From an uncultured Pelagibacteraceae bacterium (GTDB taxonomy: Bacteria; Pseudomonadota; Alphaproteobacteria; Pelagibacterales; Pelagibacteraceae), in contig CACOCP010000001.1 in NCBI GenBank assembly GCA_902625715.1, positions 124,001 to 188,000 on the forward strand: DNA of 64,000 bases. Direction: 5' to 3'. Every line of letters starts with the position of its first letter. Position 1 is the stretch's first letter. This document shows positions 31,975 through 44,811 of the stretch, piece by piece. A model generated the notes under the pieces. It ran no database searches and was not told the DNA's origin. It saw nothing but the letters and a program-made list of their open reading frames with translations. A program made the position numbers and the translations under genes.

Positions 31975-32829
31975 TTATTTTTCTGGCCTTGTAGCAATAT
32001 AAACACCAATTGATGCAATTAAAAAACCAATTATGTCAATAAAGTATAAATTTTCATTTAAAAACAACCAAGCCATCAAAGCAGATACAGATGGTATTAA
32101 AAAGAAAAAAGAGGTTGTTTTACTTGCTGAATTTTCTCTTATCAGGAACATCAGAATTGTAAAAGCACCAAATGAGACTAACAAAACTTGATGACTCATC
32201 GCAGCTATGAAAGTGAAAGAAAAATTAATTTGAAATTTTGTAAAAAAAATTATTATTAAGATATGGAATAAACACCCTCCAAGAGCTTGATAGGTATTAC
32301 TTGTTTCTAGTGGTAAGTTATTTGATATTTTTTTTTGCCAAATTGTTGCAGATGTAATTGATACTAGAGAAATTATAGTTGCTATCACTCCATCAAAAGG
32401 AATATTTTTTCCTATATCAAAACCCAAGACTAATGTAGCACCTAAAAATCCAAGTAATATTCCAATCCACTGATGATAGGATACATTTTCTTTAAGAATT
32501 GGACCTGCCAATATATTTGTTAGAATAGGTTGTAATGTTACAATTAATGCAGCTATACCAGTCGGCATTCCAACAGATACTGAATAAAAAACTCCTCCAA
32601 GATAAATTCCATGAAATAAAACTCCACTTACTAATGATTGAATTAAATTTGATTTAGAAACTACTAAACTAAAATTTTTATATATTGAAAAAATTAAAAA
32701 ACCTAGAGATACAAAAAAAAATCTAAAAGCTAATGCTGAAAAAGGTTCACTATGATCAACAATTGGTTTGGTTGTGATAAATGCTGATGACCACAAAACA
32801 ACGAATATCAAAGGAAAAATCTTTGTCAT
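31975..32829 (-). CDS. EamA/DMT-family transporter
   Basis: A second EamA-type transporter of 284 residues with ten predicted hydrophobic segments; FVVLWSSAFITTKP at the N-terminus and the LFLNENLYFIDIIGFLIASIGVY block near the C-terminus are typical. It is not a close copy of the transporter at 30175-31062. It probably forms an operon with the homocysteine methyltransferase downstream, so its cargo may be a sulfur compound or an amino acid; that is a guess from position only. Confidence 0.87.
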   Translation of the reverse strand: MTKIFPLIFVVLWSSAFITTKPIVDHSEPFSALAFRFFFVSLGFLIFSIYKNFSLVVSKSNLIQSLVSGVLFHGIYLGGVFYSVSVGMPTGIAALIVTLQPILTNILAGPILKENVSYHQWIGILLGFLGATLVLGFDIGKNIPFDGVIATIISLVSITSATIWQKKISNNLPLETSNTYQALGGCLFHILIIIFFTKFQINFSFTFIAAMSHQVLLVSFGAFTILMFLIRENSASKTTSFFFLIPSVSALMAWLFLNENLYFIDIIGFLIASIGVYIATRPEK

Positions 32830-32890
32830 TTATAAAAAATTTATATCAAAAAAAGGCTTAGAACAATTTAAAGAGGATATTTTTGCTTTA

Positions 32891-34333
32891 TTAAGTTTTA
32901 AGTCCTAAGTGAGTGTATTTAATATTTAAATAATCTTTAATTGCCATAGATCCACCCTCACGTCCATATCCAGTTTGTTTTATACCCCCAAATGGTGCTT
33001 CTGCTATTGCAACCGTTGGCGTGTTCACAGCTACACAGCCAGTCTCCATTAACTCTGAAGCTTTATGTGCTTTTTCCATTGAGTTTGTATAAATATAGCT
33101 ACACAATCCTAAATCATTATTATTTGCTCTTTCAACAACTTCATCAAAAGACTTGAATGAGAGCATGGGAACTAGAGGTCCAAATGGTTCTTGTTTCATT
33201 ATGGTAAAATTATCATCAACATCATCAAATACAGTTGGCTCGTAAAAATACCCTTTATTAAAGCCTGATGGTCTTTTTCCACCTATTAAAACTTTAGCAC
33301 CTTCTTTTTTTGTTGTTTCTACAAGCTCTTCAATTTCACTTAACCTTTTTAAAGTTGTTATAGGACCTAATTGAACACCTTGATCCATACCATTTCCTAT
33401 TTTTAATTTTTTAGTTTTTTCAATAAATTTGTTAACAAATTCATCTTTCTTACTTTCTTGAATATAAAATCTATTTGGGGAAATACATACTTGTCCATTA
33501 TTTCTAAATTTTGCTGCAATCGCCATATCGGCTACTTTTTCAATGTTACAATCTTCAAATACGATAAATGGTGAATGACCACTTAGTTCCATTGTTACTC
33601 TTTGAACTTTATCAGCAGCTTTCTTAAGTATTAATTTTCCAACCCTGGTTGATCCTGTAATTGAAACTTTTTTCACAATATCTGACTCTAGCAATTGCTC
33701 AGAAATTGAAGGTGGATCACCAGACAATAAATTAACAACACCATCAGGAACACCACATTCTTTGCAGATATCAACTAATTCCATAACAGTACCTGGTGTT
33801 ATTACATCAGGTTTACATATTACCGAGCATCCAGCAGCCAAGGCAGTAGAAATTTTTCTAGATGCTAAAATAAGTGGAAAGTTCCAAGGAACTAGCGCTG
33901 CAACAACCCCGACAGGTTGATAGTATACATGAACTCTTGTATCTGAAAATCTACTTTCAACTGTTTGTCCATAAATTCTTTTAGTTTCTTCAGAGTTCCA
34001 TTCAAAAATATCAGCTGCTCCTCCTGCTTCACCAACTCCTTCTGCTAAAGGTTTTCCAACCTCTAAAGTCATCCATTTAGCCAAAATATCTTTTTTTTCT
34101 CTAATTTTATCAGCAATATTTCTTAAAACTTTAGACCTTTCCCAAGGAGTAGTATTTCTCCATTTTTTAAATCCACTCTCAGATGAAAGAAGTGCCTTTT
34201 CTACGTCTTCACGACAAGCTTTAGATGCATGTCCTAAAATTTCCTCCGTTGCAGGATTTATTACTTCGTATGTCTCGTTGTTTTGAGACTTTTGCCACTT
34301 ACCATCAATAAATTGTCCAAACCTTTCATACAT
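32891..34333 (-). CDS. Aldehyde dehydrogenase (NAD(P)-dependent, GabD-like)
   Basis: The 480 residues match the aldehyde dehydrogenase superfamily: VINPATEEILGH, VVAALVPWNFPLILASRKI, TGSTRVGK, the general base Glu249 in VTMELSGHSPFIVF and the nucleophile Cys283 in NNGQVCISPNRFY, then EPFGPLVPM and GGIKQTGYGREGG. The closest groups are succinate-semialdehyde, 2-oxoglutarate-semialdehyde and lactaldehyde dehydrogenases. It lies 5 bases after the sugar-acid dehydratase gene, so its aldehyde substrate probably comes from that route. The substrate cannot be fixed from sequence alone. Confidence 0.92.
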   Translation of the reverse strand: MYERFGQFIDGKWQKSQNNETYEVINPATEEILGHASKACREDVEKALLSSESGFKKWRNTTPWERSKVLRNIADKIREKKDILAKWMTLEVGKPLAEGVGEAGGAADIFEWNSEETKRIYGQTVESRFSDTRVHVYYQPVGVVAALVPWNFPLILASRKISTALAAGCSVICKPDVITPGTVMELVDICKECGVPDGVVNLLSGDPPSISEQLLESDIVKKVSITGSTRVGKLILKKAADKVQRVTMELSGHSPFIVFEDCNIEKVADMAIAAKFRNNGQVCISPNRFYIQESKKDEFVNKFIEKTKKLKIGNGMDQGVQLGPITTLKRLSEIEELVETTKKEGAKVLIGGKRPSGFNKGYFYEPTVFDDVDDNFTIMKQEPFGPLVPMLSFKSFDEVVERANNNDLGLCSYIYTNSMEKAHKASELMETGCVAVNTPTVAIAEAPFGGIKQTGYGREGGSMAIKDYLNIKYTHLGLKT

Positions 34334-34338
34334 AATTT

Positions 34339-35514
34339 TTATTCGATTATATTAAAATCTTTTTTATATTCTTCAGTAAGCGATAAACCCAAACCTGGTG
34401 TATTATCATCTAAATTAATAAATCCATCTTTTGGAGAAGGATCACCTTTAAATATATAATAAAAAAGTTCATTACCGACTTCAACATCATTTACAGGAAA
34501 ATATTCTGCTATCGGACAATTGAAGTTTGACATAGTTAGATGATAATTATGCATTTGACCAGCATGTGGTATAACCGGAATTTGATACGCTTCAGCTAGA
34601 GCATTTATTTTCTGTGCAATTGTAAAACCACCTACTCTGTTATTATCATATTGAATATAACTTAAGGCATTTAAATCTAACAATTGCTTAAAACCAAATA
34701 AATTAAACTCATGCTCACCTCCAGATATCGGTATAGCGTTCATATTGTTTAATTCTTTATATCCATTAACATCATCAGCAATTACTGGCTCCTCTAACCA
34801 CCTAGGATTATATTTCACCAATTTTGGTATCATTCTTTTTGAATAATCTAAATTCCATCCCATGTAACATTCCAACATTAAATCTGTGTCATAACCAATA
34901 ACTTCTCTTACAGCCTCAACTAACTCTATATTTTTTTTCATTCCCGCTGACCCATCTTTTGGCCCCCAGCCAAATCTCATTTTAAACATTGTAAAACCTT
35001 GTTTTTTATAACTTTCAGCTTCTTGCTGTAAATTTTTGATTGGTTGGGAATAAAGTTTAGATGCATAAACCGGTATTTTTTCCTTAGTTCTTCCACCCAA
35101 TAACTTAAATACTGGTTTATTCGTTAATTTGCCTAAAATATCCCATAAAGCGATATCAACTGCAGATATAGCAACCATGCCTAAACCTCTTCTTCCCCAT
35201 GCGTGCGTTCTTCTATACATTTTTTCCCAAATATATGAAAAATCAAATGGATCCTCTCCAACAACTAAAGGTGCAAGATATGTATCTATTGTTTTTTTTA
35301 CTAATTGAGGAGCCAGAGCGGCATTTCCAATTCCTATAGTACCCTCGTCTGTTTCTACTTCACAAATTAACCATTCGTGAAATCTGAAAGAACCCATAGC
35401 ATCTGATTTTTCATAGAGTAAATCTGATGCATTTGTGCAAAAATTATTTTGTGGAGGAACTGTTTTACCATTCCATTGATAAACTTTTGTTCTTATTTCT
35501 TTAATTTTTGTCAT
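34339..35514 (-). CDS. Mandelate racemase/enolase-superfamily dehydratase, rhamnonate-dehydratase-like
   Basis: The 391-residue protein is an enolase-superfamily enzyme. The N-terminal capping domain is followed by the barrel. Likely metal ligands are Glu215 in LMLECYMGW, Glu241 in WLEEPV and Glu267 in ISGGEHEF; the general base is His317 in [10 protein letters not shown] with Asp290 in [26 protein letters not shown] resembles HWGPHDGDAGIRKD of E. coli L-rhamnonate dehydratase, and there is no Lys-x-Lys base. It should dehydrate a sugar acid to a 2-keto-3-deoxy acid. The first metal ligand is Glu where E. coli RhmD has Asp. Operon with the aldehyde dehydrogenase; an 90-base gap separates it from the PdxA-like gene. 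Confidence 0.9.
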
Positions 35515-35604
35515 TTTTTTTATTTTTGCAATTTAATCTACTCTTGTGCCATTAGTTAATACAACTCCCAAAATACTTAATAACTTTAACTTTCTAGACT
35601 CATT
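35515..35604 (-). other. 90-base spacer with a short reading frame, possible gene remnant
   Basis: The minus strand of this gap contains an open stretch reading LSILGVVLTNGTRVD followed by TAA, which looks protein-like but has only a TTG as possible start. A separate ATG at 35603 gives just five codons. It may be a leftover C-terminus of a deleted gene, or chance. No hairpin is visible. Confidence 0.25.
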
Positions 35605-36597
35605 TTAATTTTTATTTTCAGCCATTCTTAATGCAATTTTAAATGAATTCAAAGTTGGTTCTAATTTTGCCTGATTTTTTCCAGCAATATCAAACGCGGT
35701 TCCATGTGCAGGTGTTGTTATTGGAATTGGAAGACCACCTTGAACTGTTACTCCTCTATCAAATCCAAAAGCCTTTAGTCCAGATTGAAGAGCATCATGA
35801 TACATTCCAACAATACAATCATGATTTTTATTTTTAAATGCTGTAATAAAAGAAGTATCACATGGTAAAGGACCATCAGCGTTAATACCAAGTTTTTTTG
35901 CTTCCTCTATTGCTGGTATTATTTCATCTTTTTCTTCATTACCAAACTCTGCATGAGGGTTAAGAGCTTGAACTGCAACTCTTGGATTTTCTATACCATT
36001 TAACTTCATTGCTTCATTAATCAATTTTATAGGCTTCATTATTTTATCTTTCTTAATGTGCTCTGAAACTTCTTTTATAGGTATATGAGATGTAACTCGA
36101 GCAGTCCAAAAATTATCCACTACATTAAATTCACAAAAAAAACTTTTCACGTTTAACTTATCAGCCATATGATGTAATTCGTCATCAAATTTACATCCAC
36201 CTAGTTTTAAACTTGTCTTGTTAAAAGGACCAAAATTAATAGCATCAATTTTTTTCTCTTTCGCAAGTTCTAGTGCTAAATCTAATGCATTTAAAACGGT
36301 TTCCCCAGATTCTGCGGAGCACTCAGATAAATTATAATCTTTGTTTTTACCTTTAGAGATATCTAAAAAATATTTATTTTTTTTATCAAAATTTATTTCT
36401 TCAAAATCAGTAACAATTTCTAGATCTGAATTATTTCCAGTAATTTTATCTCCAGAATTTAAAATATTTTTTTCACCAATTACAGTAATGTTTGCGCTCG
36501 ATAGTTCGTTTTGGGCCAAAAGTTTTGATATAAGTTCTGGTCCAATACCGGATGGATCTCCTAGTAATAAAGCAATATTTTTTTTCCTATTTGTCAT
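35605..36597 (-). CDS. PdxA-family dehydrogenase (PdxA2-like)
   Basis: This 330-residue protein belongs to the 4-hydroxythreonine-4-phosphate dehydrogenase family: LLGDPSGIGPELISKLL, GPFNKTSLKLGG, ALNPHAEFGNEEKDEIIPAI, DGPLPCDTSF, CIVGMYHDALQSGLKAFG and PAHGTAFDIAGK. The three metal histidines are in HHMADKL, NPHAEF and MYHDAL. It sits with sugar-acid enzymes, as PdxA2 homologues do when they oxidise 4-phospho-erythronate or threonate, rather than with pyridoxine genes. However, no OtnK/DenK-type kinase is nearby, so the phosphorylated substrate is unexplained. It could alternatively act on a non-phosphorylated hydroxy acid. Confidence 0.88.
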   Translation of the reverse strand: MTNRKKNIALLLGDPSGIGPELISKLLAQNELSSANITVIGEKNILNSGDKITGNNSDLEIVTDFEEINFDKKNKYFLDISKGKNKDYNLSECSAESGETVLNALDLALELAKEKKIDAINFGPFNKTSLKLGGCKFDDELHHMADKLNVKSFFCEFNVVDNFWTARVTSHIPIKEVSEHIKKDKIMKPIKLINEAMKLNGIENPRVAVQALNPHAEFGNEEKDEIIPAIEEAKKLGINADGPLPCDTSFITAFKNKNHDCIVGMYHDALQSGLKAFGFDRGVTVQGGLPIPITTPAHGTAFDIAGKNQAKLEPTLNSFKIALRMAENKN

Positions 36598-36608
36598 CTT
36601 TTCTCTTA

Positions 36609-36621
36609 CTGTTTCTAACAG
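36609..36621. promoter_or_regulatory. Short inverted repeat in divergent promoter of the sugar-acid cluster
   Basis: CTGTTTCTAACAG has perfect 5-base arms around TCT, in the only spacer between the two divergent halves of the cluster. It could be an operator for a local regulator. The arms are short, so chance is not excluded. Confidence 0.25.
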
Positions 36622-36666
36622 ATTATGATTAAATATTTAAATATAAATTAACTTAAGAGGGAAATA

Positions 36667-37641
36667 ATGAAAAAAAGTTTTAAATTATTCTTAGCTGCAG
36701 CTTTTGTAGTAACAGAATTTTTTATCGTTGCTCTTCCATTAATGATTACGTCTGCAAAAGCAGATGGTCATCCAATACAAGCAATTACTCACGCTGGTTT
36801 TGGTGGTGGAACAGATGTTACTACCAGAATGATGTTGTTAAGAGCAAGAAGAGTTTTAAAACAAGACATGCAGTTAGTTAATAAAAAAGGTGGCGGTGGA
36901 GCTGCATCTATGGATTACATGATGTCTTTACCTGCAGATGGAAATCACACTTTAACTTGGACTACTGGTCACGCTGTATCAATGGCACTAGGAAAAACTA
37001 AAGTTAAATTGAGTGATATGCAGCCTTTAGCAAGAGGAACTGATGATCCTCAGTTATTTGTTGTAAACTGCAATAACGACATCAAAGATGCTAAAAAATT
37101 TATTAGCACACAAAAATCAAAATCTTTGAAATATGGTACAACGCACACAGGTGGTATTGATGATGTAAGTGCAATAGCATTCACAAAAAAAGGTGGATTA
37201 AAGGATCCAACCATTGTTGCTTACAAAGGCGTGGCTCCTATTAAAACAAACCTAATTAAAGGAGATATAGATGTAGGTGTTTTAAACCTAGGAGAAGCTT
37301 TGACTGAAATTAATGAAGGCAAACTTTGTGTTTCAGTAGTTCTTGCAAATAGTAGAATGGCTAAAATAGGTGACTCTCCAACAGCAAAAGAACTTGGTAT
37401 TCCTGTTTCTTTATCCACTGTTAGAGGTTTTGTAACTAAGAAAGGTGCTCCAGCTGATAGAGTAAAACAATTAGAAGCTGGAATGTTAAAAGCTATGAGC
37501 CACAATTACTATAAAAATTTCTTAACTGAAATTGGATTGGACGACACAAGTGTTGTAGGTGCAGATGAGTGGGGTAAGCAAATGGAAGAAATGCTTGCTG
37601 AAATGACTGCTCAATTAAAAGCTTTGGGTTATATCAACTAA
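36667..37641 (+). CDS. tctC: Tripartite tricarboxylate transporter substrate-binding protein
   Basis: TctC-type periplasmic proteins capture carboxylates for the TctAB membrane pair. The 324 residues start with a signal peptide ending in SAKA, then the Bug-family core: ITHAGFGGGTDVTTRMMLLRA, NKKGGGGAASMDYMMS, LARGTDDPQLFVV, LKYGTTHTGGIDDVSA and LGIPVSLSTVRGFVTKKGAP. A clear ribosome-binding site (AAGAGGGA) lies before the ATG. It is divergent from the PdxA-like gene across a 69-base spacer that must hold both promoters. A terminator-like hairpin follows 39 bases after its stop. Confidence 0.92.
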   Translation: MKKSFKLFLAAAFVVTEFFIVALPLMITSAKADGHPIQAITHAGFGGGTDVTTRMMLLRARRVLKQDMQLVNKKGGGGAASMDYMMSLPADGNHTLTWTTGHAVSMALGKTKVKLSDMQPLARGTDDPQLFVVNCNNDIKDAKKFISTQKSKSLKYGTTHTGGIDDVSAIAFTKKGGLKDPTIVAYKGVAPIKTNLIKGDIDVGVLNLGEALTEINEGKLCVSVVLANSRMAKIGDSPTAKELGIPVSLSTVRGFVTKKGAPADRVKQLEAGMLKAMSHNYYKNFLTEIGLDDTSVVGADEWGKQMEEMLAEMTAQLKALGYIN

Positions 37642-37649
37642 AGTAATTA

Positions 37650-37674
37650 GTACATTTACAAATGAGTAATGTAC
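37650..37674 (+). other. Hairpin with the tctB start codon in its loop
   Basis: GTACATTTAC and GTAATGTAC pair with one bulged T, leaving the six-base loop AAATGA, which contains the likely tctB ATG at 37662. It is AU-rich, so stability is modest. It directly precedes the stronger hairpin at 37681. Confidence 0.35.
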
Positions 37675-38168
37675 GTAATAAAAAAAGGGCAGGCAGTAGC
37701 TTGCCCTTTTTTTTTAAAGATTCAACTATTGTTCCATTCATCATTATTTTAATATCCTCGATACTTTTATATATTACTTTTACATTTGATATTGTTCCAC
37801 CAATTTTAAATCGAGGCATACAACCTGCAACCTTTCCAAAAGCATTATTGTTATTAATAATATCTTTAACGTTAATAATATTTTTTCTATCTATTAAAAA
37901 ACCTTGGAAAGAAGAAAAGAAACTCCCAAAAGAATTCTATATTACACTAGGATGTTTTCTTTTATTTTTATTTGTTTCAAAATTTTTAGATTTTTTTTTA
38001 GGAATTTCGTTACTTTCAGCAATTGTCTCCTATTTTTGGGGAGAAAGAAGATTAATATTTATTTTATTTGTAAGTATTTTATTTCCTATAATTGTATTTA
38101 TCTTTTTCGAAACCATTTTAGGATTAAGATTTCCTTCTGGAATAATTACAGATTTATATTATAGCTAA
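37662..38168 (+). CDS. tctB: Tripartite tricarboxylate transporter small membrane subunit
   Basis: TctB is the small four-helix membrane partner of TctA. The 168 residues show membrane segments STIVPFIIILISSILLYI, FPKALLLLIISLTLIIFF and two more near the C-terminus, with the PATFPKALLLL motif of the family. The start is uncertain: the ATG at 37662 gives a hydrophilic leader (NVRNKKRAGS) encoded by a terminator hairpin, while an in-frame TTG at 37701 would remove it. The conserved part begins near KDSTIV. The stop abuts tctA. Confidence 0.82.
   Translation: MSNVRNKKRAGSSLPFFFKDSTIVPFIIILISSILLYITFTFDIVPPILNRGIQPATFPKALLLLIISLTLIIFFLSIKKPWKEEKKLPKEFYITLGCFLLFLFVSKFLDFFLGISLLSAIVSYFWGERRLIFILFVSILFPIIVFIFFETILGLRFPSGIITDLYYS
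37681..37715 (+). terminator. Intrinsic-terminator-like hairpin between tctC and tctB
   Basis: The arms AAAAAAGGGCAGGC and GCTTGCCCTTTTTT pair over 14 bases with one G-U pair, around loop AGTA, and end in an unbroken run of nine T. This is a textbook rho-independent terminator by shape. It lies inside the first 20 codons of tctB as read from the ATG at 37662, so it must either leak, act as an attenuator, or show that tctB starts further down. The likely effect is more transporter binding protein than membrane subunits. Confidence 0.8.
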
Positions 38169-39635
38169 ATGGAAAATTTATCTTTTATTCTTGCACCTTT
38201 ATTTAGCTCTAAACTTTTAATAGTTTTATTTCTTGGTACTTTATTTGGATTAGTTCTAGGTGTTTTACCTGGCTTAGGACCAACAACGGGTGGAGCATTG
38301 ATTTTGCCTTTTACAATGACACTAGATCCAATATCAGCAATAGTTTTATTAACTGCTATCTATTGTGCTGGGACTTATGGTGGTGCAATAACTGCAATTT
38401 TAATTAACACCCCTGGAACTCCTGCTGCAGCTGCCACCTGTTTAGATGGTTATCCATTAGCACAAAAAGGAGAAGCTGGAAGAGCATTAGGAATGGCAAC
38501 CGTTTCAAGTGTTGTTGGCGGATTAATTAGTGTTTTAGTTCTTATATTTTTTGCACCACTTTTGGCACAATTAGCTTATGAATTTGGCCAACCAGAATAC
38601 TTTGCGTTAGCAATATTTGGTTTAACAATGCTTGCGTCTATTGGTGAAGGCAGCCCAATTAAAAATTTAATTGCAGGAGCTTTTGGAATTTTAATTTCAA
38701 CAGTAGGTAAAGATTTTATGACATCAATAGATAGATTTACATTTGGAATAAATGAATTAACTGAGGGAATTGGTTTTATTCCAGTTGTTGTTGGTTTATT
38801 TGCAATTAGCGAGATGTTAACTCAATCTACGCTTTTAAACCAGGTATTTAACAGAGTTGCATTAAAAGCGGTAAAACTTCCTACAAAAGATGATTATAAA
38901 AAGACGTGGAAGACCATCCTTAGGTCAAGTGGAATAGGCTCGTTCATAGGAGTTTTACCTGCTGAAGGTGGAACAGTTGCATCTTTAATAGGATATTCTG
39001 AGGCTAAAAGATGGTCGAAAAAACCAGAAGATTTTGGAAAAGGATCTATAGAAGGAATTGCTGGAGCTGAAGCTGCAAACAATGCTGCAACTGGAGGTGC
39101 TATGGTACCAACACTTGCATTAGGTATTCCAGGTAGTGCTACAACAGCAGTTATATTAACTGGTTTAATTATTCATGGAGTTAGACCAGGTCCAGATCTT
39201 TTTAGAGAACAACCAGAATTCCTTTATGGAATATTTGGATCAATGTTAATCGCAAACATACTTTTTTTTATACTAGGTTTCTTTGGAGCCAAATTATTTG
39301 CTAGAATTACTTTAGTACCGAATAAATTATTATGGCCAATGATTTTTGCAATTTCTGTTTGTGGCACTTATTCTTTAAGCCAGTCTTTGACAGATGTTTG
39401 GATAATGTTGTTTTTTGGAGTTATTGGTTTTTTTATGCGAAGATATGGTTTTTCAGTAGTTCCCGTCATTATAGGGTTAATTCTTGGAGAACTTGTCGAG
39501 GGAACTTTAAGGCAATCATTAGTCATATTTGAAGGAAACTGGCTTATGTTTTTTCAAAGACCTATCGCACTTATATTTTTTATTTTATCTTTAATTGCTT
39601 TAGGTTTTCCGTTAATTAAAAAGAAAAAAATATGA
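38169..39635 (+). CDS. tctA: Tripartite tricarboxylate transporter large membrane subunit
   Basis: TctA is the transport channel of the system, with about 12 membrane helices and energised by an ion gradient. The 488 residues show the diagnostic GVLPGLGPTTGGALILPFT near the N-terminus, GTYGGAITAILINTPGTPAAAAT, IGVLPAEGGTVASLIGYSEAKR and AANNAATGGAMVPTLALGIPGS, all strongly conserved in TctA. It starts one base after tctB ends and overlaps the SDR gene by an ATGA. The substrate is a carboxylate; the neighbouring enzymes point to a sugar acid. Confidence 0.95.
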   Translation: MENLSFILAPLFSSKLLIVLFLGTLFGLVLGVLPGLGPTTGGALILPFTMTLDPISAIVLLTAIYCAGTYGGAITAILINTPGTPAAAATCLDGYPLAQKGEAGRALGMATVSSVVGGLISVLVLIFFAPLLAQLAYEFGQPEYFALAIFGLTMLASIGEGSPIKNLIAGAFGILISTVGKDFMTSIDRFTFGINELTEGIGFIPVVVGLFAISEMLTQSTLLNQVFNRVALKAVKLPTKDDYKKTWKTILRSSGIGSFIGVLPAEGGTVASLIGYSEAKRWSKKPEDFGKGSIEGIAGAEAANNAATGGAMVPTLALGIPGSATTAVILTGLIIHGVRPGPDLFREQPEFLYGIFGSMLIANILFFILGFFGAKLFARITLVPNKLLWPMIFAISVCGTYSLSQSLTDVWIMLFFGVIGFFMRRYGFSVVPVIIGLILGELVEGTLRQSLVIFEGNWLMFFQRPIALIFFILSLIALGFPLIKKKKI

Positions 39636-40381
39636 ATAATTTTGATTTAAAAAATAAAGTTGCAATAGTAACTGGTGGAGCCCAAGGTTTTGGCTTTGCT
39701 ATTACCGAAAAATTTTTGGCCTCAGGTGCTAAAGTTTTGATTTGGGATATTGATGAGAAGGAAGCTAATGTTGCTTTAAAAAAATTTAATAATGAAAATT
39801 GCTCTTATCAAAAGGTAGATGTTAATAATTTTAATGATATTGAACAAACATTAAAACAAATTGAGAGTTCTCATGGCAAAATAGATATTTTTATAAACAA
39901 TGCTGGAATAACTGGGATGAATGCAACAATAGCTGATTACCCAACAGACGAGTGGGAAAAAGTTATTAATTTAAATTTGAATGCGGTTTTTTACTGCTGC
40001 AAAGCCGTTGTGCCTTACATGATTAAACAAAATTATGGTAGAATTGTAAATATTTCCTCAATTGCTGGAAAAGAGGGAAACCCTAATGCTGGAGCTTACA
40101 GCACATCAAAAGCAGGCGTTATCGGACTAACAAAATCTTTAGGAAAAGAATTAGCCCAAAAAAATATAGCAGTTAATTGCGTTACCCCTGCAGCTGCAAA
40201 GACAAGAATTTTTGATCAAATGACCAAAGAACACATTGATTATATGTTGTCAAAAATTCCAAGAAATAAATTTGCAAAAGTAGAGGAATTAGCATCACTA
40301 GTAGCTTGGCTCTCAAGCGAAGAAAATTCTTTTTCAACAGCAGCTGTATTTGACTTGAGCGGGGGAAGAGCAACTTATTAA
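39632..40381 (+). CDS. Short-chain dehydrogenase/reductase
   Basis: The 249 residues form a classical SDR: the nucleotide loop TGGAQGFGFAI, INNAGITG, the catalytic Ser in NISSIAGKEG, the YxxxK in AYSTSKAG (Tyr and Lys), and the C-terminal FDLSGGRATY. In the diketo-hydrolase route of L-rhamnose and L-fucose breakdown, an SDR oxidises C4 of the 2-keto-3-deoxy acid, which is the role I infer here. It overlaps tctA by 4 bases, and the next gene starts on the base after its stop, so the cluster is one transcript. Confidence 0.9.
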   Translation: MNNFDLKNKVAIVTGGAQGFGFAITEKFLASGAKVLIWDIDEKEANVALKKFNNENCSYQKVDVNNFNDIEQTLKQIESSHGKIDIFINNAGITGMNATIADYPTDEWEKVINLNLNAVFYCCKAVVPYMIKQNYGRIVNISSIAGKEGNPNAGAYSTSKAGVIGLTKSLGKELAQKNIAVNCVTPAAAKTRIFDQMTKEHIDYMLSKIPRNKFAKVEELASLVAWLSSEENSFSTAAVFDLSGGRATY

Positions 40382-41242
40382 ATGAAAATTGGCTTCATTG
40401 GAACTGGATTAATGGGCGTTCCAATGATCAAAAATTTATTAAAATCTAAAAATAAGATAAGTATTTTCAATAGAACAATCAAAAAAGCTGAAAAACTGAG
40501 GAAATATGGAGCAATTGTATCTTTAAGTATTGATCAAATAGTTAAGGACAAAGATGTGATAATAACAATGTTAACCGACGATAAAGCAGTAAATCAAATA
40601 ATAAGTAGTAAAAAATTTCTTCATAATATTAATAAAAAAACAACAGTAATAGACATGAGCTCAACTAAACCAATCACAGCTTTAAATAACTATAAAAAAT
40701 TAAAAAAATTAGGAGTTTATTTTTTAGATGCTCCTGTTTCTGGCGGCACTAAAGGAGCTGAAGATGCTAGCCTTGCTATAATGGTTGGTGGGGATAAGAG
40801 AATATTTAAAAAAAACTTAAAAGTTTTACAGATTTTTGGAAATCCAAATTATGTAGGAAAATCATCCTCTGGTCAGGCTACAAAATTAGCAAACCAAATA
40901 ATTGTCGGTATTACTATTGGTGCGGTATCAGAGTCAATTATATTATGCAAGAAACTAGGTTTAAATTTAAAAAACGTATTAAAGGCCTTAGAAGGAGGAT
41001 GGGCTGATAGTAAAATATTGCAAACACATGGATTAAGAATGATAAATGATGATTTTAGACCTAGAGGAAAAGTATCTTCACAACTGAAAGATATGGAAAA
41101 TATTTTAATTACAGCAAAAATGAATAATGTAAATCTACCACTTTCAAAGATTATAAGAAATATGTATAAACAACTATCAAAAAAAGGTTATAATAATTTA
41201 GATCACAGTTACTTATTTAAAGAAATTAAAAACTATTTTTAA
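40382..41242 (+). CDS. 3-Hydroxyisobutyrate-dehydrogenase-family oxidoreductase
   Basis: This 286-residue beta-hydroxyacid dehydrogenase has the NAD loop GFIGTGLMGVPM, the substrate block DAPVSGGTKGAEDASLAIMVGG and the catalytic lysine in GQATKLANQIIVG. It resembles tartronate-semialdehyde reductase, L-threonate dehydrogenase or 3-hydroxyisobutyrate dehydrogenase; these cannot be told apart by eye. In this cluster it probably reduces a small aldehyde acid or oxidises a hydroxy acid. It follows the SDR directly, and the FAH-family gene starts 19 bases after it with a GGAGA ribosome-binding site. Confidence 0.88.
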   Translation: MKIGFIGTGLMGVPMIKNLLKSKNKISIFNRTIKKAEKLRKYGAIVSLSIDQIVKDKDVIITMLTDDKAVNQIISSKKFLHNINKKTTVIDMSSTKPITALNNYKKLKKLGVYFLDAPVSGGTKGAEDASLAIMVGGDKRIFKKNLKVLQIFGNPNYVGKSSSGQATKLANQIIVGITIGAVSESIILCKKLGLNLKNVLKALEGGWADSKILQTHGLRMINDDFRPRGKVSSQLKDMENILITAKMNNVNLPLSKIIRNMYKQLSKKGYNNLDHSYLFKEIKNYF

Positions 41243-41261
41243 TAATATTAATGGAGATAGA

Positions 41262-42104
41262 ATGAAACTATTAAGAATTGGAAAAAAAGGAAATGAAAAA
41301 CCAGCCGCAATAGACAAAGATGGCAAAATTAGAGATATAAGTTCACATATTCAAGATTTAAAACCTGATCATTTAAATTTTGATACTATTTCAAAATTAC
41401 AAAGTGCAGATTTATCTTCACTACCAGAACTATCTTCAAATGAAAGAATTGGCTCATGTATTACAAACCCAGGTAAATTTGTTGCTATTGGATTAAATTT
41501 TTCTGATCATGCAGCTGAAACTGGAGCAAAACCACCCACTGAACCTATAGTATTTATGAAGGCAACTAGTTGTATAAACGGACCAAATGACGATATAGAA
41601 ATCACTAAAGACTCCAAAAAACTTGATTGGGAAGTTGAATTGGGTGTTGTCATTGGAAAACATACAAAACATATTTCAGTAAATCAGTCTCAAGATCATA
41701 TTTTGGGATATTGTTTGGTCAATGATGTCAGCGAAAGAGAATGGCAAATAGAAAAAATGGGTCAATGGGTTAAAGGAAAATCACATGATACCTACGGTCC
41801 AATTGGCCCATATTTAGTAACTAAAGATGAAATTTCTGATGTAAATAATTTAAATATGTCTTTGGATTTAAATGGTGAAAGAATGCAAACTGGCAACACA
41901 AACACCATGATTTTTAATGTGAATATAATTGTTTCATATTTGAGTAAATTTATGTCTTTACAGCCTGGAGATATTATAACCACAGGAACTCCTCCTGGAG
42001 TTGGTATGGGTATGAAGCCACAAAAATTTTTAAAAGCTGGTGATAAAATGAGACTATCAGTAGATTATTTGGGAGAGCAAAACTCCAAAGTTGTACTAAT
42101 ATAG
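41262..42104 (+). CDS. Fumarylacetoacetate hydrolase family protein (diketo-acid hydrolase-like)
   Basis: The 280 residues show the FAH fold: CITNPGKFVAIGLNFSDHAAE, the metal ligands in LDWEVELGVVIG and VNDVSEREWQ, WVKGKSHDTYGPIGPYLV and DIITTGTPPGVGMGMKP. The closest subfamily is the 2,4-diketo-3-deoxy-sugar-acid hydrolase / ureidoglycolate-lyase-like group, which splits 2,4-diketo-3-deoxy-rhamnonate to pyruvate and lactate. That fits the dehydratase and SDR genes here. ppc starts 19 bases downstream. Confidence is high for the family and moderate for the reaction. Confidence 0.88.
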   Translation: MKLLRIGKKGNEKPAAIDKDGKIRDISSHIQDLKPDHLNFDTISKLQSADLSSLPELSSNERIGSCITNPGKFVAIGLNFSDHAAETGAKPPTEPIVFMKATSCINGPNDDIEITKDSKKLDWEVELGVVIGKHTKHISVNQSQDHILGYCLVNDVSEREWQIEKMGQWVKGKSHDTYGPIGPYLVTKDEISDVNNLNMSLDLNGERMQTGNTNTMIFNVNIIVSYLSKFMSLQPGDIITTGTPPGVGMGMKPQKFLKAGDKMRLSVDYLGEQNSKVVLI

Positions 42105-42123
42105 TACTAAAGTATTTATTTTT

Positions 42124-44811
42124 ATGATCAAAAGAGACTTATACTACGAGAGGATTCCAACTAAATCACTTAGAGATGATGTAAGACTGCTTGGTAATAT
42201 ATTGGGAAATGTAATTAAAAAACAAGAGGGACAGACCTTTTTTAATCTTGTTGAAAAAATTAGAAAACTTTCAAAAGCTAATAAGGCTAATATTAAACAA
42301 AATAATTCATATAAAAAAATAACTAAAACTCTAAATCAAATAAATCCAATCAATATTTATAAACTTACAAGAGCATTTTCACATTTTATGAATTTTATAA
42401 ACCTTGCTGAATCAATTGATGCATCAAGAACCTTAGATGAATTTGAAAATAATAACAAAGTTAAAACAAATAAAAACATTTTTATAGAAGAAATCTTTGA
42501 GGATCTTTTTAGAAATAGAAAAATTTCATCGAGTAAAATTTATAACACCGCTAAAAATTTAAACATTGGTATTGTATTAACAGCGCATCCTACAGAGGTA
42601 AAAAGAAGAACACTTATACAAAAATACCATAATATAACTGAGCTTTTAGAACAGAGAGAGTTGATGAAAAGTTTTCCATCTAAACAAAAGATTATAGATA
42701 GAAAGTTATACGATGAATTGACTATTATTTGGAATACAGATGATTTAAAGAGAGCAAAACCATCTCCGTTTGATGAAGCAAGATGGGGGTTAGCTATAAT
42801 TGAAGACAGTTTATGGGAAACAATACCTAAGGTTTATAGAAGACTGAACAGTATTTTTGTTAAAAATATGGGTAAAGGTCTTCCAAAAAATTTTAATCCA
42901 ATTCAATTTGGTTCTTGGATGGGGGGAGATAGAGATGGAAACCCCAATGTAACTGCAGAGGTTACAAAAGAGGTAATTTTATTATCAAGATGGGAGGCAG
43001 CAAAATTATATGAGAAATCTTTAACTAAATTAATCAGATCTTATTCTATGGGAAAATGCTCTAAGAAAATTAAACAGGAAACAGGTGAAACTTTTGAACC
43101 TTACAGAGTTTTTTTACGTCCTCTTAGAAATAAAATGAGAGTAACACACAGATCAATAGAGCAACATTTAGTAAATAAAAAACCACTGGATAAAAATTTA
43201 TTACTTAAATCAAGAGAAGAAATATTAAAACCTTTACGAATAGTAAGACAATCTTTAGAAGAAAATCAGAATGAAACTTTAGCAAGTGGTGAGTTATTAG
43301 ATTTAATGAGAAGAGCTAAATGTTTTGGAATAAACTTAGCTAGATTAGACATAAGACAAGAGTCATCAAGACACTCTCAATTAATTGCTGAATATGTGAA
43401 AAGAAAATATAAAGATGACTATTATAAATGGAATGAAAATAAAAAGATAAATTTTTTAGCAAAACAACTTAAAAGAAAAAAAAATTTATTTACTAATTTC
43501 AAATTTAAGAATAAAGAAAATAATGAAGTATGGTCAACTTTTAAAACTATATCAGAACAACCACATGAATGTTTAGGTGCTTATGTGATTTCAATGACCT
43601 CTTCAGTTTCAGATATTATAAGTGTGTCATTTCTTCAAAAAGAGGCAAAGATTGAGAATAAATTAAGAGTTGTTCCATTATTTGAGACACTAGACGACCT
43701 AATAAATTCAAAAGCTATAATGCATTCACTATTTCAACAAAATTGGTACAGAAAACTTATAAAAAACAAACAAGAGGTCATGATAGGCTACTCAGACTCC
43801 AGTAAAGATGCAGGAAAGATATGTGCTAGTTGGCATCAATACAAAGCTCAAGAGGACATAGTTAAACTTGCAAAGAAATACAAAATAGAGGTAACTTTTT
43901 TTCACGGAAGAGGTGGATCAGCAGGTCGTGGAGGTGGTCCTATACAAGCAACGCTTAGGTCTCAACCTCCATATTCAGTGAATGGAAAAATTAGAATTAC
44001 TGACCAGGGAGAAGTAATTCAACAAAAATACGGTTACGAACCTTTAGCAAAATATAATTTATGTAGTTATATAGGCGCAGTTACAGACGCAACCTTGAAC
44101 CCTCCGCCTATCCCGAAAAAAAATTGGAGAGAATTAATTGAAAAAATGTCAGATATTTCAAAAAGTTCATATCGAAAAAATATTAATCAGAATTTAGATT
44201 TTATAAGATATTTCAAAACTGTAACACCACATGTGTCTTTAGGTAAATTATTAATTGGCTCAAGGCCGTCTAAGAGAAAAAATGTGGATAATATAAAAAG
44301 TTTACGAGCAATACCATGGGTATTTGCATGGACTCAAATTAGATTAATGTTACCAGCATGGTTAGGTAGTGCAGAAGCATTAAGATATTCGTCAATTAAA
44401 AAATTTAAACACACCCTTTATGACATGGAAAGAAATTGGCCATTTTTTAACTCAATGCTAGACATTCTAGATATGGTTATTTCTAAAGTTGATCCTGAAA
44501 TTTCAAAAATATATGAAAAGTATTTAGCAGATGATAAGTTAGTAAGAATTGGTAAAAAACTTAGATATCAATTTGAAATTGTAAAAAAATTAAATAAAAA
44601 AATAACACCAAAAGAAATTGCTAACGCAAGAAAACAATTTAGAAACAGCATAATTGTTAGAAATATTTACACAGAGGTACTTAATATAATACAGCCAATA
44701 GTAATTTCTAAAATTAAAACAATCAAAGGTAGTGAAAATAAAAAATATCTTAATGATGCATTGTTAACATCAATTGCTGGTATTTCTGCTGCAATGAAAA
44801 ATACTGGATAA
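42124..44811 (+). CDS. ppc: Phosphoenolpyruvate carboxylase
   Basis: PEP carboxylase forms oxaloacetate from PEP and bicarbonate to refill the TCA cycle. The 895 residues contain VLTAHPTEVKRRTL with the catalytic His, FGSWMGGDRDGNPNVT, IGYSDSSKDAG, FHGRGGSAGRGGGPIQATL with catalytic His/Arg, and QIRLMLPAWLG. The C-terminus ends in AAMKNTG, the usual terminal motif. It may be cotranscribed with the sugar-acid genes upstream, and it overlaps ccdA by one base. Confidence 0.96.
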   Translation: MIKRDLYYERIPTKSLRDDVRLLGNILGNVIKKQEGQTFFNLVEKIRKLSKANKANIKQNNSYKKITKTLNQINPINIYKLTRAFSHFMNFINLAESIDASRTLDEFENNNKVKTNKNIFIEEIFEDLFRNRKISSSKIYNTAKNLNIGIVLTAHPTEVKRRTLIQKYHNITELLEQRELMKSFPSKQKIIDRKLYDELTIIWNTDDLKRAKPSPFDEARWGLAIIEDSLWETIPKVYRRLNSIFVKNMGKGLPKNFNPIQFGSWMGGDRDGNPNVTAEVTKEVILLSRWEAAKLYEKSLTKLIRSYSMGKCSKKIKQETGETFEPYRVFLRPLRNKMRVTHRSIEQHLVNKKPLDKNLLLKSREEILKPLRIVRQSLEENQNETLASGELLDLMRRAKCFGINLARLDIRQESSRHSQLIAEYVKRKYKDDYYKWNENKKINFLAKQLKRKKNLFTNFKFKNKENNEVWSTFKTISEQPHECLGAYVISMTSSVSDIISVSFLQKEAKIENKLRVVPLFETLDDLINSKAIMHSLFQQNWYRKLIKNKQEVMIGYSDSSKDAGKICASWHQYKAQEDIVKLAKKYKIEVTFFHGRGGSAGRGGGPIQATLRSQPPYSVNGKIRITDQGEVIQQKYGYEPLAKYNLCSYIGAVTDATLNPPPIPKKNWRELIEKMSDISKSSYRKNINQNLDFIRYFKTVTPHVSLGKLLIGSRPSKRKNVDNIKSLRAIPWVFAWTQIRLMLPAWLGSAEALRYSSIKKFKHTLYDMERNWPFFNSMLDILDMVISKVDPEISKIYEKYLADDKLVRIGKKLRYQFEIVKKLNKKITPKEIANARKQFRNSIIVRNIYTEVLNIIQPIVISKIKTIKGSENKKYLNDALLTSIAGISAAMKNTG

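Follow-up and report, generated by a model that had tools for sequence, protein, structure and literature searches.

A predicted SAR11 pathway for scavenging a rearranged breakdown product of ascorbate

The window analysed here (the whole stretch of DNA, 64,000 nucleotides) comprises positions 124001-188000 of contig C1 in genome G000, an assembly of 1.16 Mb in 29 contigs that is 88% complete. The genome is SAR11-like: among the relatives listed, the closest relatives of the dehydratase in named genomes came from uncultured Pelagibacteraceae single cells (82-88% identity). The subject of this study is a cluster of nine genes at 32891-42104 of the window, which a first-pass annotation had described as two divergent transcripts for the uptake and degradation of a sugar acid, modelled on the route from L-rhamnonate or L-fuconate to pyruvate and lactate. 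All nine open reading frames were intact, their coordinates agreed exactly with this span and the Pfam family was confirmed for each of the nine proteins, with E-values from 2.9e-12 (TctB) to 7.5e-161 (TctA), so the described layout was upheld. The features are as follows.

32891-34333, minus strand: aldehyde dehydrogenase (ALDH), SSADH-like (PF00171, 533.3 bits)
34339-35514, minus strand: enolase-superfamily sugar-acid dehydratase of the mandelate racemase (MR) subgroup, proposed L-lyxonate dehydratase (PF13378/PF02746)
35605-36597, minus strand: PdxA-like enzyme, proposed NAD- and metal-dependent 2-carboxy-L-lyxonate decarboxylase (PF04166, 255.2 bits)
36598-36666, no strand: intergenic region common to both divergent transcripts, 69 bases between the PdxA-like gene and TctC
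36667-37641, plus strand: TctC, periplasmic binding protein of a TTT transporter, proposed ligand 2-carboxy-L-lyxonate (PF03401, 67.9 bits)
37662-38168, plus strand: TctB, small membrane subunit (PF07331, 47.4 bits)
38169-39635, plus strand: TctA, large membrane subunit (PF01970, 535.9 bits)
39632-40381, plus strand: SDR, proposed 2-keto-3-deoxy-L-pentonate 4-dehydrogenase (PF00106, 202.8 bits)
40382-41242, plus strand: HIBADH-family reductase, tartronate-semialdehyde-reductase-like, accessory (TIGR01505, 243 bits, cut-off 340.75)
41262-42104, plus strand: FAH-family hydrolase, proposed 5-hydroxy-2,4-dioxopentanoate hydrolase yielding pyruvate and glycolate (NF053535, 394.9 bits)

A GntR-family gene occupies the position between TctC and the PdxA-like gene in genome G420; none lies there in the window. 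A promoter scan of 32800-42200 returned 35 sites, fewer than the 41.9 found in shuffled sequences, and no promoter is claimed.

Judged by its sequence, the dehydratase is not a rhamnonate dehydratase. It scored 227.5 bits with the NCBIfam L-rhamnonate dehydratase model NF011968, well below the cut-off of 393, and its nearest solved structures were 3ssz, 3stp and 3sqs (664-695 bits), whereas the highest-scoring rhamnonate dehydratase reached 203.6 bits. These three structures bear no more specific names than mandelate-racemase-family protein or putative galactonate dehydratase. In an alignment of eight sequences, E241, E242, E267, D290 and H317 were invariant and position 215 held E in six sequences and D in the other two; from enolase-superfamily work, we take these positions to be the metal ligands and the Asp-His pair. 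By sequence comparison, the dehydratase is assigned to a separate enolase-superfamily group that has a PdxA-like gene as its fixed partner. Of 397 Pelagibacteraceae genomes, 43 had the dehydratase and 77 the PdxA-like gene; among the 140 that are 90% complete or better, the counts were 33 and 49, respectively. All 43 dehydratase-bearing genomes also carried the PdxA-like gene, with the matched stretches 2-93 bases apart.

Gene neighbourhoods were compared in 56 loci, defined as the dehydratase group at 56% identity or above and made up of 13 Pelagibacteraceae loci and 43 others; L022 (48% identity) and L063, L064 and L066-L102 (under approximately 50% identity or of another group) were left out. 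Twelve of the 13 are referred to below as the SAR11 loci and were drawn from the best 80 of at least 583 dehydratase relatives; the thirteenth is L015 of genome G375. Presence tables were made by tblastn, since the purpose-written gene caller over-calls in high-GC loci, and some of the reference proteins came from tabulated loci (L015, L021, L054, L059, L060, L103, L107 and L108), which therefore match themselves. Several loci are cut by contig ends. Because the set contains near-copy loci (e.g., L021/L058, L018/L041 and L045/L047) and related SAR11 genomes, the counts are not independent events. The PdxA-like gene was found in 41 of the 56 loci, namely 13/13 from Pelagibacteraceae and 28/43 from other bacteria, the latter spanning Alpha-, Beta- and Gammaproteobacteria.

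The PdxA-like protein scored 225.6 bits with the PdxA equivalog model TIGR00557, under its cut-off of 290.35. At E. coli positions H136, T137, N283 and R292, which from the annotation of E. coli PdxA are presumably substrate contacts, the window protein carries E, L, T and I, respectively, while H166, H211, H266 and K274 are retained. These replacements were general among 41 aligned PdxA-like proteins (that of the window and 40 others; L106, in which the gene is in two pieces, was omitted): H136 was replaced by E, N283 by T or S and R292 by I, V, L or M in 41/41, and T137 was replaced in 40, with L035 retaining T. The metal histidines 166, 211 and 266 and K274 were retained across the alignment. 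A second PdxA in the same genome (G000:C1:116484-117302) retains T137, N283 and R292 and has I at 136.

The downstream half of the cluster combines an SDR and an FAH-family hydrolase. The SDR carries the motifs YSTSK at 156 and NNAG at 89, and copies 76-80% identical to it were found in 12/12 SAR11 loci. The FAH protein scored 394.9 bits with NF053535 (2,4-didehydro-3-deoxy-L-rhamnonate hydrolase), below the cut-off of 500, and its best structure match was 8gsr, an L-2,4-diketo-3-deoxyrhamnonate hydrolase (295.8 bits). In genome G420 (a single contig, 100% complete), TctABC, FAH and SDR form one run next to the PdxA-dehydratase pair, with the GntR gene between. An FAH match (1e-60) was present in 13 of the 14 SAR11-family genomes searched. 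The exception, G375, was the one genome of the 14 with AraD1 (NF040903, 494.5 bits against a cut-off of 340); none was found in G000. AraD1 or DapA-like genes, rather than this SDR, accompanied the dehydratase in 35/56 loci, KGSADH-like dehydrogenases occurred in 12/56, and 9/56 had neither module. All 12 SAR11 loci had the SDR and none had AraD1 or a DapA-like gene; at 50% identity, no DapA-like gene was found in the 13 Pelagibacteraceae loci, a search confined to the loci themselves. 2-Keto-3-deoxypentonates are known to be taken to alpha-ketoglutarate by AraD1 or DapA acting together with a semialdehyde dehydrogenase. The AraD1 and DapA-like neighbours, together with the exchange of FAH for AraD1 in G375, therefore make a 2-keto-3-deoxypentonate the most likely product of the dehydratase, as judged from gene content. 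The alpha-ketoglutarate-ending chemistry of pentonates is beyond the reach of a 6-deoxy-hexonate, which makes rhamnonate and fuconate unlikely. PMC6336799 describes the conversion of 2-keto-3-deoxypentonates to pyruvate and glycolate by an SDR and an FAH enzyme in Herbaspirillum ('Route III'), and His83 and Glu86 of the window FAH have the same numbering as the pair given there for C785_RS20550.

TctC copies 80-98% identical adjoin PdxA-like genes in Pelagibacteraceae regions, and TctC proteins 40-55% identical occur in seven other alphaproteobacterial TTT loci. TctA (at least 55% identity) was found in 20 of the 41 PdxA-bearing dehydratase loci. In three Pelagibacteraceae genomes, G443, G468 and G624, TctABC and the PdxA-like gene lie together with no dehydratase there, and this association links the transporter to the substrate of the PdxA-like enzyme. 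2-Carboxy-L-lyxonate would suit a dicarboxylate-carrying TTT system as the ligand.

The link to ascorbate (vitamin C) comes from the neighbours of the pair in other bacteria. In nine of the 41 PdxA-bearing loci, genes for WD40/YncE-like, SMP-30/gluconolactonase-like or cytochrome b561 proteins were present, examples being the Ruegeria pomeroyi megaplasmid, Phaeobacter, Sphingomonas and Variovorax; cytochrome b561 was found in L061, L106, L107 and L108, having been sought in the fetched loci and not genome-wide in SAR11. TctA and these ascorbate-entry genes were mutually exclusive: 20 loci had TctA only, nine had entry genes only, 12 had neither and none had both. The WD40-like protein was matched in 14 of 72,556 plasmid records, and at least 11 of the 14 were also in the dehydratase list (the best 40 of 47 records), with the two genes at most approximately 9 kb apart. 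This check is only partly independent, as five of the 11 records recur in the 56-locus set, one of these five being the query's own. The L-ascorbate catabolism of Cupriavidus necator H16 reportedly passes through 2-carboxy-L-lyxonate (Stack et al. 2020). Its early steps are said to be oxidation by b561, a gluconolactonase, a WD40-like benzilic acid rearrangement to 2-carboxy-L-lyxonolactone and an amidohydrolase lactonase; a PdxA-family decarboxylation with catalytic NAD+ and the conversion of L-lyxonate to alpha-ketoglutarate reportedly follow. We take the YncE-like gene to be this WD40-like enzyme, as the reported steps would imply. PMC10444878 names an ascorbate degradation pathway needing a COG4948 enzyme and cites Stack 2020 and Ghasempur 2014, and PMC12932077 cites Stack 2020 in connection with the benzilic acid rearrangement. 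According to PMC11066805, in conditions that mimic the plant apoplast the rearrangement of diketogulonate needs no enzyme and leads to 2-carboxy-L-pentonate, a dicarboxylic acid, and a pair of lactones; these products are unstable and release CO2 slowly, leaving L-lyxonate and L-xylonate. PMC6225978 states that most such by-products are undiminished by hydrogen peroxide or superoxide, and that two of them are not oxidised in vivo.

The SAR11 genomes appear to lack the opening steps. A profile of the WD40-like protein matched none of the 43 dehydratase-bearing SAR11 genomes, of which 33 are at least 90% complete. Its positive controls matched 3/3, the control proteins being themselves rows of the profile; the profile was used since a single-sequence search gave weak matches in just two of eight genomes. 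As the WD40-like gene was not found, these bacteria would scavenge the pre-formed acid. PF08450 (SGL) and PF04909 (Amidohydro_2) had no match in G000 (88% complete) or G375 (99% complete), the two SAR11 genomes covered by this search, and each was matched in the other six of the eight genomes searched; the G389 region contains a gene with 34% identity to an SMP-30 protein. The earlier remark that no lactonase is present was borne out for these two families in G000, and the proposal that the acid itself is imported by the TTT transporter to feed the dehydratase, SDR and FAH module appears to have been right.

The pathway that we propose, with all substrates and reactions inferred, is as follows. 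TctABC would import 2-carboxy-L-lyxonate, a branched dicarboxylic sugar acid arising from dehydroascorbate via 2,3-diketo-L-gulonate. The PdxA-like enzyme would decarboxylate it to L-lyxonate, and the dehydratase would turn L-lyxonate into 2-keto-3-deoxy-L-lyxonate (that is, L-2-keto-3-deoxypentonate). The SDR would then oxidise C4 to give 5-hydroxy-2,4-dioxopentanoate, and the FAH hydrolase would cleave this compound to pyruvate and glycolate, so that the last two enzymes would stand in for the usual exit to alpha-ketoglutarate. We put at roughly 0.6 the probability that the cluster serves to scavenge a rearranged product of ascorbate breakdown, with the steps from TctABC to FAH as given. The broader idea that SAR11 members feed on vitamin C debris in this way, taking up 2-carboxy-L-lyxonate by the TTT system for PdxA-type decarboxylation, L-lyxonate dehydration and diketo-acid hydrolysis, and leaving the opening of ascorbate to other organisms or to seawater, is in our judgement an even bet.

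Several observations weigh against this pathway. Its function is predicted from homology and linkage, and TTT membership alone leaves the ligand unfixed. The PdxA-like gene was missing from 15/56 dehydratase loci, ten of them from Acidobacteria, Verrucomicrobia or Sphingomonas, in which MFS, AraD1, HIBADH-family or GH39 genes stood beside the dehydratase in varying sets; three of the 15 (L043, L057 and L062) are on short contigs or contig ends. Conversely, 34 of the 77 PdxA-bearing Pelagibacteraceae genomes had no dehydratase match at the threshold. Of six of these inspected, G443 (L143), G468 (L144) and G624 (L151) kept TctABC, PdxA and SDR, G552 ended at a contig edge, and G524 and G427 had the PdxA-like gene with TctABC not near. 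In G443, which is 99% complete, a second SDR stands in the place of the dehydratase, and either another dehydratase serves in such genomes or the PdxA product has another use. The PdxA-like protein shares its residue signature with a protein of a Sinorhizobium TTT cluster that has no dehydratase and with one of an Agrobacterium gene cluster for L-threonate; since these proteins lie outside the pair, the signature does not mark one substrate and belongs to a broader non-classical PdxA group. The argument for a C5 product leans on the functions assigned to the AraD1, DapA and KGSADH families: the 'KGSADH' of G375 scored 128.7 against a cut-off of 770, and the DapA-like proteins matched no NCBIfam model at 1e-30, only the Pfam DHDPS family. 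The match to the ascorbate pathway likewise rests on what Stack 2020 and Ghasempur 2014 reportedly found, and the WD40-like protein, which matched no Pfam family at 1e-10, owes its name to record annotation (YncE). The literature on ascorbate in seawater offered nothing relevant among the matches listed. Within the loci, the ALDH and HIBADH genes are without a clear place in the scheme, and a ROK-family kinase gene found beside the SDR or approximately 1 kb from it in 11/12 SAR11 loci (L023-L033; e.g., L023:4300-5202) is given no role in it; the window, L034 and the G420 region do not have this gene.

The strongest competing explanation is that TctABC imports L-lyxonate and/or another pentonate, such as L-xylonate or L-arabinonate, for the dehydratase, SDR and FAH, and that the PdxA-like enzyme works on a side substrate, for instance a C2 epimer or a hydroxy acid from outside the pathway. 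The pentonate logic is the best-supported part of the evidence, and the 15 PdxA-less loci agree with this explanation, as does the unaided loss of CO2 from the branched acids described in PMC11066805. We nevertheless consider it improbable, since the PdxA-like gene lies at most 93 bases from the dehydratase in 43/43 SAR11 genomes and stays with TctABC in the three genomes without a dehydratase there.

Degradation of L-rhamnonate or L-fuconate to pyruvate and lactate, as the first-pass annotation had it, is now very doubtful. The set of dehydratase, SDR and FAH would fit, and the FAH protein is closest to 2,4-didehydro-3-deoxy-L-rhamnonate hydrolases; moreover, the Herbaspirillum pair yielded lactate from 2-keto-3-deoxy-L-fuconate (L-KDF) according to PMC6336799, so such SDR/FAH pairs seem to accept both C5 and C6 substrates. 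The dehydratase, however, falls below the cut-off of the rhamnonate model and has its closest solved relatives in a separate group, its relatives adjoin AraD1 or DapA-like genes, G375 swaps FAH for AraD1, and the PdxA-like gene would be left unexplained. The rhamnonate/fuconate pathway was rejected on these model cut-offs and neighbours. That the PdxA-like gene serves vitamin B6 synthesis beside an unrelated sugar-acid cluster, as the standard family annotation (4-hydroxythreonine-4-phosphate dehydrogenase) and the ability of PdxA2 to perform the PdxA reaction (PMC9997740) might suggest, was rejected because the genome holds a second PdxA with T137, N283 and R292 and the window copy is under the equivalog cut-off and has lost the substrate residues.

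Two further candidates were set aside. For a phosphorylating PdxA2/DUF1537 route, no sugar-acid kinase was found in the window cluster or among the annotated neighbours of its relatives, for which the gene tables are incomplete. Decarboxylation of a C6 aldarate by PdxA followed by FAH was dropped on the reasoning that AraD1 and DapA, as partners, call for an intermediate with a 4-hydroxy group. Of the earlier interpretation as a whole, the sugar-acid dehydratase, SDR and FAH module with its TTT transporter stands and the rhamnonate or fuconate substrate falls. The PdxA-like gene, formerly treated as an unexplained extra, is instead the most constant partner and would point to the 2-carboxy-L-lyxonate/L-lyxonate branch of ascorbate degradation.

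The expected co-occurrence of the genes held in part. TctABC, the PdxA-like gene, the dehydratase and the SDR occurred together in 12/12 SAR11 loci, and FAH was within reach in four of the 12, though matched in 13/14 genomes. The ALDH and HIBADH genes are loosely placed and probably not core. The ALDH scored 486.1 bits with the SSADH subfamily model (cut-off 646.35) and was present in 9/12 SAR11 loci, the remaining three stopping before its place. It was adjacent to the dehydratase only in L034; in eight of the 12 it lay approximately 8 kb beyond, beside an iolD-like gene. It also lies beside that gene in G624 and was not seen in the G420 region. A HIBADH copy was found in 3/12 SAR11 loci and in G552, and was not seen in the regions of G420, G564 and G550. 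Compared with 32891-44811 of the window, L023-L033 differ in the sugar cassettes that they carry, with PEP carboxylase/FAH on one side and the ALDH on the other; they contain ABC sugar transporters, the ROK-family kinase and the iolD-like gene, with ribokinase-like and rbsD-like genes named by eye. Such differences between relatives suggest a variable sugar-use island.

Other neighbourhoods are recorded for completeness. In L053, L054, L056, L059 and L060 (Acidobacteria and Sphingomonas), dehydratase relatives of 56-61% identity occur with MFS transporters and HIBADH-family genes and no PdxA-like gene, and several of these loci also carry GH39 glycosidases or AraD1. Sulfatase genes adjoin the dehydratase in Marinovum and Polaromonas (L104 and L106), the PdxA-like match of Polaromonas being the one in two pieces. 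An amidohydrolase and an SMP-30-family gene accompany the pair in L021 and L058, from another alphaproteobacterial group, and an IlvD-type dehydratase and a mutarotase were seen near it by eye. A second SDR occupies the position of the dehydratase in G468, as in G443; both genomes have a second IlvD/Edd-family gene and FAH elsewhere, as do some dehydratase-bearing genomes. On Sinorhizobium pSymB (L154:3968-8255), the order is GntR-PdxA-TctC-TctB-TctA with no dehydratase in the stretch. Its TctC is just 25% identical to that of the window, and the two TTT systems may differ in ligand. The Agrobacterium gene (L155:3995-4990) lies inside a cluster for L-threonate, another ascorbate breakdown product, in which a 3-oxo-tetronate kinase is present and a dehydratase is not shown.

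SAR11 is the ocean's most abundant bacterial group. If the proposed pathway is true, a SAR11 TTT transporter gains a named substrate, and branched sugar acids derived from ascorbate could be tested for as a component of labile dissolved organic carbon. The gene pair is misleadingly named in public records, as 'PdxA' and 'L-rhamnonate dehydratase'; it is the pair, not a single gene, that would mark the pathway, and the neighbours suggest which starting compound a bacterium uses, ascorbate itself or the acid already formed. Within one family, genera have different exits (FAH in 13/14 genomes, AraD1 in 1/14), a compact case of modules being exchanged in streamlined genomes. Precedents are known for all of the enzymatic steps, and the combination has not been described as a whole before: among the literature matches listed, with subscription journals mostly outside, no description of it, of its presence in SAR11 or of entry by a TTT system was found, and, judged by titles and the opening lines of abstracts, none of those on SAR11 and ascorbate dealt with this pathway.

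The predicted pathway shares parts with four known systems. The closest is the ascorbate pathway of C. necator H16 (Stack et al. 2020), in which a PdxA-family decarboxylase reportedly precedes an L-lyxonate dehydratase; the corresponding pair is adjacent in 43/43 SAR11 genomes and elsewhere stands beside b561, SMP-30 and WD40/YncE-like genes. In contrast to C. necator, the SAR11 genomes had no WD40-like match (43/43) and no SGL or Amidohydro_2 match in G000 and G375, and their cluster has a TTT importer and an SDR and FAH exit. In the L-lyxonate pathway of Pseudomonas aeruginosa PAO1, the first enzyme would be similar, namely an MR-subgroup L-lyxonate dehydratase. In this route, a second dehydratase and then a semialdehyde dehydrogenase reportedly lead to alpha-ketoglutarate (Ghasempur et al. 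2014, cited in PMC6336799 and PMC10444878), whereas AraD1 was not found in 13 of the 14 SAR11-family genomes searched. The threonate pathways with PdxA2 and a DUF1537 kinase, said to have been described by Zhang et al. 2016, likewise use a PdxA-family enzyme in sugar-acid catabolism; unlike them, the window cluster has no kinase (ROK-family genes are near 11/12 relatives), and residues kept in the PdxA2 structure 2hi1, as aligned, are replaced in the window protein. The exit resembles Route III of Herbaspirillum huttiense as given in PMC6336799, where a 2-keto-3-deoxypentonate dehydrogenase and an FAH-type hydrolase with His83/Glu86 yield pyruvate and glycolate, the likeness here being one of sequence features. 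Route III is fed there from pentoses via their acids, whereas in the SAR11 cluster acid uptake and PdxA-type decarboxylation would feed it.

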